64,000 nt of DNA, from positions 124,001 to 188,000 of the forward strand of contig NZ_BBMB01000005.1 in NCBI RefSeq assembly GCF_000971235.1. Reading direction: 5' to 3'. This stretch comes from Demequina subtropica (GTDB lineage: Bacteria > Actinomycetota > Actinomycetes > Actinomycetales > Demequinaceae). Of this stretch, positions 57,341 through 64,000 are shown piece after piece. How positions within the stretch are numbered: position 1 is the first letter of the stretch; each line of letters opens with the position of its first letter. The position numbers and the translations under genes were made by a program. Below the pieces are notes generated by a model that worked only from the letters and a program-made list of their open reading frames with translations, was not told the DNA's origin and ran no database searches.

Positions 57341-57688
57341 CTACACCGCCAAGGCGAGCCGCACCCCGTCACTCACCGCACGCATCACGTGGCTGGGCAG
57401 GTGTCCCACCGCGAACGGATCAACGAACTCCCGCCCCACCGGCCCCACCTGCGACACCACCGCGATCGAGTCGCGGTCGAGCCCGCTCGCCGCGCGCGCG
57501 ACCCGCACGTTGCCGGGGAAATCACCGAGATCGACGTTCGAGGTGAGCGGCACCACCAGCACGGTCGCGATGGCGGTGGCCAGCAGCCAGTCGGCCTGGA
57601 ACACCACCGCCGGGCGCCTCTTCGCCGGCTCGGAGCCGCGCGGCGACCCGAAATCGACCCACACCACGTCACCTCGAGCGATCACCAC
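57341..57688 (-). CDS. MazF/PemK-family endoribonuclease toxin
   Basis: 115 residues. RGDVVWVDFGSPRGSEPAKRRPAVVFQADWL is the classical start of the family, with the conserved RPAVV strand, then TVLVVPLTSN and the SQVGPVGREFV strand. Cleaves mRNA at short sequences when released from its antitoxin. It overlaps the antitoxin gene by 7 bp, normal for this module. Converges on the FNT gene with 10 bp between. Confidence 0.93.
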   Translation of the reverse strand: MVIARGDVVWVDFGSPRGSEPAKRRPAVVFQADWLLATAIATVLVVPLTSNVDLGDFPGNVRVARAASGLDRDSIAVVSQVGPVGREFVDPFAVGHLPSHVMRAVSDGVRLALAV

Positions 57689-57927
57689 TCGGATCCTTCG
57701 AGGACGATGCGCTCGGACTCCCGCAGGAAGGGCGCCTCGAGCGCGCGGACGCCAGCACGCTCGAGGACCGAGTTCGCGAGCGCGGTGAGCTCGGAGCCTC
57801 CCTCGAGATCATCCGCGAGCCGGCAAGCGGCCACCCGATAGAACTCGGACCGGCTCATGCCGTGCTGCGCGGCGACCCGTTCGAAGCGCTCGAAGTCACC
57901 GTCCGGCAAGGAGATCGCAGTCTTCAC
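57682..57927 (-). CDS. MazE-type/RHH antitoxin
   Basis: 81 residues. Ribbon-helix-helix N-terminus (KTAISLPDGDFERFERVAAQHGMSRSEFYRVAACRLADDL), acidic C-terminal tail (LRESERIVLEGSEW) that would wrap the toxin. GTG start seven bases after a TATACT -10. Represses its own operon through the palindrome that overlaps that -10. Confidence 0.9.
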   Translation of the reverse strand: MKTAISLPDGDFERFERVAAQHGMSRSEFYRVAACRLADDLEGGSELTALANSVLERAGVRALEAPFLRESERIVLEGSEW

Positions 57928-62036: not shown

Positions 62037-62196
62037 GTGGTGAATCCCCCCTCGGATCAGGACGCCGCCGAGCGGCGGCTGGCCGTAGCGTATCGCCTGG
62101 TCCGCGGTAGTTCCGGTATCGACGCCGGGCCGATGCGGTCATGCGCCGCGCGAGCGTGCGCGTCGCGAGTTGCGTTGATGCCAACCGCGCGATTCT

Positions 62197-62238
62197 GTCG
62201 CACTCCCCAAGCCGCGTTCCGAAACCCTCGAGTGCGAC
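62197..62238 (-). terminator. Inverted repeat after the last gene of the right-edge operon
   Basis: GTCGCACTC (62197-62205) and GAGTGCGAC (62230-62238) are perfect 9-bp arms around a 24-nt loop, 2 bp after the third gene stop at 62241. Likely the operon terminator. The 204-bp gap to the lipoprotein start shows no other recognisable feature. Confidence 0.55.
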
Positions 62239-62240
62239 GA

Positions 62241-62669
62241 TCAGGACGTGGCCGCGGCGAGAACCCCCAGTATGTTTGCCGCGAGGAGCCCCCAACTCCA
62301 TCCCGAGAGCGACACCGCTGTCCACATCGGCGGCCTCGAAGGCGCAGCGCGCGTGGTCGCGAAGATCGTGATGGATACGATCGCGACAATTAGTAGCGCG
62401 TGAGCAAGGTCGGACTCAAGAAGGCTCAAGTCAGCGAACGCGACGGCGGTGAGCACCATGGCGGGAAGGTTCGCGGCGACGTCTGTGAGACGTTCAAACC
62501 ACGACGCCAACACCGCACGCGAGACGCCGTACGGGATGGCTGGCGGTTCGCTGCCGGTCCCGGTGCCAGTGACGCGCCGCTCGTACTCCTTCGCGAATCG
62601 GCTCACAAGGCTCGCGTTCAGCAATGACCCGAGCACCACCACGATGCCGGAGACGATGAAGAGTGTCAC
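62241..62669 (-). CDS. Small membrane protein, third gene of the right-edge operon
   Basis: 142 residues. Three to four hydrophobic segments: the N-terminal MTLFIVSGIVVVLGSLLNA (about 1-20, type of a signal anchor), about 68-85, 90-108 (HALLIVAIVSITIFATT) and the C-terminal WSWGLLAANILGVLAAA. Between the first two lies a polar loop with Tyr/Glu/Arg and TGTGTGS. The GTG overlaps the stop of the second gene (GTGA at 62666-62669). No homologue recognised. Its low GC and atypical codons match the two genes before it. Confidence 0.65.
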   Translation of the reverse strand: MTLFIVSGIVVVLGSLLNASLVSRFAKEYERRVTGTGTGSEPPAIPYGVSRAVLASWFERLTDVAANLPAMVLTAVAFADLSLLESDLAHALLIVAIVSITIFATTRAAPSRPPMWTAVSLSGWSWGLLAANILGVLAAATS

Positions 62670-63085
62670 GTGAGCGGGACGTCCAGCGAACGCACATATG
62701 GCTTTGAGTAGGGCATCCGCGCACTCACGGAGTATTCGATCCGGCAAGATCCCGTCTGCATGCCGTCCGGGGCGTTGATCGCAGCCTTGGCGGATACAGG
62801 TGCCGTCGAGCCCGTCGCGGTCGTGCCTACGTGGCGCCACTTCTTGCCGTTCGAGATCACCTTGTCGGCGATCGCAGTCGCGGCGTAGGTCTGACCGGCC
62901 TCACGCAACTCTGAGGTGAACGAGAAGGTCAGTTGCTCTCCTAGGTGGTTGCGATAGAGCAACTCATGGTTGTGGGTGAGCAGAGTGTGTTCGCATCGCG
63001 ACTCGGCTGCCGCCTGCCCCTCAAGACCGACAATCGTGATATCCGCACGCACGACTCGGAGCTTGTTCTTGTTGCCGCTTCTCAT
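62666..63085 (-). CDS. Beta-rich soluble protein, second gene of the right-edge operon
   Basis: 139 residues. Predicted mainly as strands by alternation of hydrophobic residues: KLRVVRADITIVGL, LLYRNHLGEQLTFSFTSEL, YAATAIADKVISN, HVGTTATG and CRIEYSVSARM, a pattern like an immunoglobulin-fold or jelly-roll sandwich. Two Cys; no signal peptide. ATGA overlap with the first gene (63082-63085), GTGA overlap with the third, so all three are translated as a coupled unit. No family recognised. Confidence 0.65.
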   Translation of the reverse strand: MRSGNKNKLRVVRADITIVGLEGQAAAESRCEHTLLTHNHELLYRNHLGEQLTFSFTSELREAGQTYAATAIADKVISNGKKWRHVGTTATGSTAPVSAKAAINAPDGMQTGSCRIEYSVSARMPYSKPYVRSLDVPLT

Positions 63086-64000
63086 ACGAGGAACTTCCTC
63101 CGCCGTCCCGATAGGAGAACTTCGATTGCGCACTGACCCTGCTCAAGCAGGGCGATGTTCCGCATCGTGCGCCGCGCCAGACTGCGTATTGCAGGGATTT
63201 CGCCGCGCGGGACGATGACTCCGACCGCGCCGACGAGGTGATCGCGATCGTGGAACCGCTGTTGCGGCGCACGCCACGTAGCCGCGATACCGTCCGACAC
63301 GGGAATGCGCGCAGCAGTCGCGCGCGTCACGAGACCTCGCGCGGCTAACTCGTGCCACGTTCCTTCGTGATAGGCCACATATGGTTCGTCGACCTCGACG
63401 TGCTCCTCCGATGTACCGACGAACGCCGAGGAGTTCAGTTGCTCGACTCCCAGCCCCGCGCTCGGCATAGCCGCAATCAGCGTGTGAAGGTCCATGGCGG
63501 AAGACCAGAACGCGACGACCTTGTCGCGCCCAGTTTCGTATGCAAAGTACTCACCACGCGCGTCACGCCAGAGGTGCGCCGGCAGGCTCCTCGTTCCGTA
63601 CTCGAAGTCCTCTACGTCGCCTCCATCTGCATCTGTCCGCTGCACTGCAGCAGATTTGTAGCGCGTCTCGGGAAGCGCGACTACCGCGATGAGGTCACGG
63701 ACCTTGCGCACATTGCCCCACATCGCCGCATCTGAACTTGCCCGCAACGACGCACTGTGCGGATGCCTCAGCCCAAGGCTTCTGAGGGCAGCCGATCTCT
63801 CCGGTGTTTGACCGATAGCGCTGCGAAGCTGAATTAGCAGCAGGTCACCTTCGCGCCCGACAACTCTGTCGAACCCAGTCTCGCGATCGAGGGGGAGCAC
63901 GTAGCCACGCGGCAGTACCGATGCACGCGGAGAGATCGCCGCAACAATCTCATCGCGCGCGGCAAGCGTCGAAGTCGCCAACTCAAGCCCCCCGAAATCG
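63082..64000 (-). CDS. First visible gene of the right-edge operon, uL30-like segment (5' end outside window)
   Basis: At least 306 codons are open to the window edge without a stop. Residue numbers here count from the TTG at 63981, but the frame continues upstream (FGGLE precedes it), so the start is probably beyond 64000. Residues about 46-102 resemble ribosomal protein uL30: LLIQLRSAIG, ERSAALRSLGLR, then AMWGNVRKVRDLIAV. The rest (about 110-299) is soluble, with FEYGTRSLPAHLWRD, VAFWSSAMDLHTLI and VGTSEEHVEVDEPYVAYHEG, and I cannot place it. Low GC and codons such as CTA suggest transfer. Confidence 0.7.
   Translation of the reverse strand, partial: DFGGLELATSTLAARDEIVAAISPRASVLPRGYVLPLDRETGFDRVVGREGDLLLIQLRSAIGQTPERSAALRSLGLRHPHSASLRASSDAAMWGNVRKVRDLIAVVALPETRYKSAAVQRTDADGGDVEDFEYGTRSLPAHLWRDARGEYFAYETGRDKVVAFWSSAMDLHTLIAAMPSAGLGVEQLNSSAFVGTSEEHVEVDEPYVAYHEGTWHELAARGLVTRATAARIPVSDGIAATWRAPQQRFHDRDHLVGAVGVIVPRGEIPAIRSLARRTMRNIALLEQGQCAIEVLLSGRRRKFLV

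Follow-up and report, generated by a model that had tools for sequence, protein, structure and literature searches.

A mobile three-gene cassette with a uL30-like protein at a tRNA-Val site of Demequina subtropica and its possible role in defence

Three overlapping genes on the minus strand (63981-62241) close the window, the whole stretch of 64,000 nucleotides of the Demequina subtropica genome that was analysed. They form a conserved, tightly packed unit, whose first protein combines a uL30 fold with a second domain that matched no known fold. The trio is tentatively read as a mobile cassette 3' of tRNA-Val, which most likely protects its host from phages or other mobile elements; the confidence placed in this reading is somewhat below even. 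The features are as follows, with the basis of each in brackets:

63082-63981, minus strand: gene 1, 299 aa from a TTG start, uL30 domain and C-terminal domain (open reading frame)
63688-63837, minus strand: uL30-like domain of gene 1 (PF00327 match, fold)
63085-63660, minus strand: C-terminal domain of gene 1 (alignments A7 and A11)
63082-63085, minus strand: ATGA shared by the stop of gene 1 and the start of gene 2 (sequence)
62666-63085, minus strand: gene 2, 139 aa, pI 9.4 (open reading frame)
62666-62669, minus strand: GTGA shared by the stop of gene 2 and the start of gene 3 (sequence)
62241-62669, minus strand: gene 3, 142 aa, membrane protein by hydropathy (open reading frame)
62197-62238, minus strand: inverted repeat 3' of gene 3, 9-bp arms (sequence; significance not shown)
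62106-64000 and on to 64140, no strand: strain-specific segment (BLASTN against the nearest relative, G019; tRNA)

Layout of the trio and its tRNA-Val site

The TTG start of gene 1 at 63981 is consistent with the alignment to its homologue in Galbitalea soli. For genes 2 and 3, longer forms are present in the list of open reading frames; the inner starts were chosen, which fit both the overlaps and the homologues. According to hydropathy, gene 2 is without a membrane segment and gene 3 has three hydrophobic segments over the threshold, against four in its counterparts in Galbitalea and Microbacterium sp. T32. An earlier note on this DNA had described the ATGA and GTGA overlaps, which were confirmed in the sequence, and had called the trio lower in GC than everything to its left. 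The latter also holds: the GC content of 62241-64000 is 0.629, and all of the 605 overlapping 1760-bp windows compared further left are higher (minimum 0.673). The inverted repeat which had been said to end the set exists (arms at 62197-62205 and 62230-62238), but it folds no better than shuffled sequences (z -0.40). Terminator-like and promoter-like sites were looked for at the trio and none was found. Further genes had been expected beyond 64000. The sequence was extended on the window's own contig (L003; window position = L003 position + 60000), and instead of further genes a tRNA-Val(tac) stands there, about 160 bp upstream of gene 1 and on its strand; in window numbering it would occupy 64141-64217. 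As this tRNA is next upstream and GC returns to 0.70-0.76 in the first kilobase past it, the trio is complete. Elsewhere in the window, a MazF/PemK-like protein of 115 aa with a short antitoxin-like partner upstream was recognised by eye in the list of open reading frames (57341-57927, minus strand).

The segment 62106-64140 is absent from G019 and starts exactly at the 3' end of the tRNA-Val. From 62105 leftward, both genomes share 91.3% DNA identity over 2105 bp (BLASTN); on the other side, only the tRNA matches, up to its 3' end, in the stretch compared. Between the shared flanks lie 2035 bp in the genome of the window versus 1242 bp of other sequence in G019, which encode a DeoR-type regulator (by eye). 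The best match of this regulator in the window's genome has 36% identity and is located on another contig. A repeat of the tRNA end at the far edge of the segment was not found in the comparison with G019, and no element backbone was seen beside the window's trio.

A match to this tRNA is present in all 41 genomes of the genus, with at least 95% identity in 39 of them, and its 3' flank was fetched for 20 congener genomes. All 20 flanks contain a relative of the second gene left of the trio (a potassium channel by eye) at a distance of 36-7592 bp from the tRNA end, and the stretch in between is variable across these congeners. No relative of the trio was present at this site in any of these genomes at E ≤ 0.01. 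By own ORF calling, 45 cargo ORFs were obtained in 18 of the 20 loci. In one of the 20, G024, the tRNA-Val is followed directly by PycC (PADLOC, 1.1e-90), HEPN_AbiV (2.1e-27) and a small membrane protein. The 42 cargo proteins outside this set gave mainly regulator-type PADLOC matches (CasR, WYL, Csa3, CARF); other matches were PDC-M05A in two proteins (best 1.1e-5) and C3a186 (1.2e-9), JetC, AbiEi and Mads in one each. With cargo that is mostly not recognised as defence across the congeners, the tRNA-Val site is variable in general and no defence site as such.

Two further observations concern the congener loci. The set of G024 (L040:874-2868) is coupled, its membrane protein has 99 aa with two hydrophobic segments, and the pairing of a cyclase with AbiV may deserve attention. 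A DeoR-type regulator (by eye) together with a divergent small gene follows the tRNA-Val in four congeners (L035, L038, L040 and L042).

The uL30-like protein and its family

The uL30-like segment, which the earlier note had pointed out in gene 1, is real. Gene 1 has the uL30 fold with the LRSLGL helix kept and matches PF00327 with 26.5 bits (cut-off 23), and it stays under the equivalog cut-off of TIGR01308 (26.9 versus 44.65 bits). It differs from uL30 (rpmD) in its length of about 300 aa, of which uL30 is one domain, and in its place, since the genome's own rpmD locus is on another contig. A third difference lies in the conserved residues. Eight cassette uL30 domains were aligned with 43 rpmD sequences (42 from fetched loci, one gene twice, and the host's own); most of the rpmD loci had been fetched as best matches to the cassette profiles, so this sample should favour likeness. 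In the tree, the cassette domains fall into a single clade (support 0.92), the branch of which is long. Scored were those 27 positions which have one residue in at least 80% of rpmD, 19 of them uncharged and 8 charged. At the uncharged positions, the eight cassette domains together keep 106 of 152 cells, and at the charged positions 12 of 64. The corresponding values for a fragment of Thermus L30, a control of one sequence, are 13 of 16 and 4 of 6. In the domain of the window itself, 14 of the 27 positions are kept. Judged by these alignments, the uL30 fold and core are kept and most of the conserved charged residues are lost. In true uL30, such residues probably contact rRNA. A core which is kept while charged residues are mostly lost favours a fold in a new role, and the loss makes a bait or interaction module more plausible than a functional ribosomal subunit.

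The motifs GxYF, E..R, W-S and RF.D of the C-terminal domain are common to most family members. The Galbitalea copy was modelled (pLDDT 78.3, pTM 0.76), and the model gave no PDB match at E ≤ 0.001.

With gene 1 alone as the query, nothing was found in 5.8 billion proteins (7995 candidates scored) or in 58 other relatives. Among 347 genomes of the order, one convincing relative was found, in Microbacterium sp. T32 (G335; E 7.3e-6). A two-row profile matched Galbitalea soli (G755; 2.5e-24) among 199 genomes of the family of G335, and a three-row profile yielded eight proteins at E ≤ 1e-3 (7997 scored), namely those of Galbitalea soli and Microbacterium sp. T32, a partial Curtobacterium protein, one soil-metagenome protein and four others. 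Among the matches listed for 394 genomes of the class, all but the window's cover only the uL30 part (rpmD or rpmD-like). For 398 genomes of the family of G755, G755 is the sole whole-model match at E ≤ 1e-8, and 49 others lie in the uL30 part. Of 149 genomes of the order, the window's alone contains two PF00327 matches. In a sample of 203 genomes of the order, evidently without Galbitalea, the profiles for genes 2 and 3 matched in the window's genome only. Given the few whole-length matches across the genomes searched, the unit is rare in what was sampled, and the distribution of the trio is both rare and patchy. In its public record, the Galbitalea homologue of gene 1 (P0005) is named a uL30 family ribosomal protein, which is probably misleading. 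No description of this gene set was found in the literature searched. None of its proteins matched a defence family in the libraries searched.

Relatives on conjugative-type elements

In Galbitalea soli, all three proteins have homologues in the same order, with BLASTP E values of 2e-30 (gene 1), 6e-7 (gene 2) and 9e-10 (gene 3) and with 23-32% identity to those of the window. With GTG taken as its start, the Galbitalea gene 2 begins inside the end of gene 1; gene 3 starts 3 bp past gene 2. This recurrence of three genes in order makes the trio more than a chance arrangement. In Microbacterium sp. T32, the homologue of gene 1 (BLASTP 4e-10) is followed by a 128-aa protein and a membrane protein in the same order, the latter two genes overlapping by 4 bp; these two have no detectable similarity to genes 2 and 3 of the window and can be paired with them only through their position and type. 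For its first part, the T32 homologue of gene 1 (L069:8423-9400) is apparently in another frame, due to either a broken gene or a sequence error. The proposal of the earlier note that the three genes act together is well supported by the co-occurrence of all three in Galbitalea and of gene 1 and the layout in T32. Homologues which never co-occur, or profile hits placing each gene in a known unrelated family, had been named as evidence against it; the homologues do recur together, and profile searches did not assign the genes in this way.

The Galbitalea and T32 loci, from two Microbacteriaceae, are situated on related conjugative-type elements. Common to both elements are a coupling protein (40.7% over 685 aa), a MT-A70 methylase, a RHH-like protein and a DUF3846 protein; the Galbitalea element also has a replication-relaxation gene (9.4e-41). 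On both, the MT-A70 gene lies to one side of the trio and the RHH-like gene to the other, and the orientation of the trio relative to the coupling gene differs, as expected of cargo gained separately. The two elements (L101 and L069) have a shared backbone, with a variable region in this interval, and the variable regions contain mixed genes.

In Galbitalea, a type II methyltransferase (5.5e-87) is encoded 2.2 kb downstream of the trio, followed by PbeA (8e-184), PbeC (1.8e-207; also DndD-like, 3.9e-54) and a MzaA-like protein (3.4e-27), all on the strand of the trio; the methyltransferase and PbeA/PbeC are within 2-6 kb of it. PbeB, PbeD and Dnd genes were not identified near this trio, hence a complete Pbe system is not shown in Galbitalea. 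In archaea, experiments have established PbeABCD with DndCDEA as an antiviral system (PMC6459918). The phosphorothioation-linked Pbe module has no genes in common with the trio and is a neighbour, not a relative. None of four neighbouring genes scanned in T32 matches PADLOC at E ≤ 0.01. The homologues thus lie on mobile elements at both loci, and beside defence genes clearly at Galbitalea only. Among the three loci with known context, a clear defence neighbourhood exists at one (Galbitalea), T32 is mobile and the window's copy is at a variable tRNA site.

A possible role in defence and its alternatives

Counted for defence are the Galbitalea neighbours, the Pycsar cassette of G024 at the same tRNA-Val site and the rare and patchy distribution. 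Like the trio, the G024 set is short and coupled, has a small membrane protein as its last member and follows the same tRNA-Val on the 3' side; unlike it, the window's trio has no recognised sensor or effector domain such as a cyclase or HEPN. Counted against defence are the cargo of the congeners, most of which is not recognised as defence, the single clear defence locus, the T32 neighbours without a PADLOC match, the lack of detectable homology of genes 2 and 3 of T32 to those of the window, the possibly broken gene 1 of T32 and the absence of a PADLOC match for the trio itself: in PADLOC-DB 2.0.0 (library of 2023), the three window proteins and ten relatives had no match at E ≤ 10. The comparison with defence modules which the earlier note had drawn has gained circumstantial support from PbeA, PbeC and the methyltransferase of Galbitalea and from the congener's Pycsar cassette, but none from PADLOC.

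The trio might instead be other cargo, serving RNA binding, antimicrobial action, metabolism or as a counter-defence aid, and the link to defence would then reflect a shared taste for mobile elements. The varied non-defence cargo at the tRNA-Val site in most congeners examined and the mixed genes in the variable regions of the elements agree with this, as does a Lactobacillus uL30 reported to be antimicrobial (PMC10931766). It is considered unlikely in view of PbeA, PbeC and a methyltransferase close to the Galbitalea trio and of the layout of the trio, a sensor-like protein with a membrane protein.

Nor is an addiction module likely, in which gene 3 as a membrane toxin would be checked by genes 1 and 2, similar to toxin-antitoxin pairs, and would keep the element in its host. 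A trio which is small, coupled, mobile and patchy, with gene 3 a small membrane protein by hydropathy and with two of the three copies of known context on conjugative-type elements, would suit such a module. However, no element backbone adjoins the window's copy and no known toxin-antitoxin family was matched above the cut-off. Three genes and a lead protein of 300 aa with a uL30 domain are, moreover, unusual for addiction modules. A translation regulator, with gene 1 binding the large subunit via uL30 and, together with gene 3, tethering or silencing ribosomes at the membrane, for instance under stress, is improbable: the kept uL30 fold and LRSLGL helix and the membrane partner predicted by hydropathy agree with it, but few of the charged residues typical of rpmD are retained (12 of 64 cells, versus 4 of 6 in the Thermus L30 fragment) and the trio is rare, patchy and mobile, unlike housekeeping regulators.

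If the trio acts in defence, gene 1 would sense an attack on the translation apparatus, and it might do so either as a free bait resembling uL30 or by encountering a factor whose usual partner is uL30 on the large subunit. Gene 2 would link gene 1 to gene 3, and the activated gene 3 may perturb the membrane and stop the infected cell. The fixed gene order and tight packing suggest a complex of the three products. In a more specific version, which is doubtful, gene 1 would be a uL30 decoy off the ribosome which catches phage factors seizing the region of the central protuberance of the large subunit, the catch triggering the membrane effector. We know of no earlier immune sensor built on a ribosomal-protein fold. 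At least one early phage protein, phiKZ014, is reported to attack the large subunit in this region: it sits on the central protuberance of the 50S subunit, and uL30, bL35 and bL36 in particular are enriched in its pull-down (PMC10914614). By analogy with this unrelated phage and host, a uL30-like bait could catch factors of the phiKZ014 kind, and with such a protein on record the idea is directly testable. If the defence reading is true, a ribosomal-protein fold moved into a mobile, defence-linked gene set would represent a new way to sense an attack on translation.
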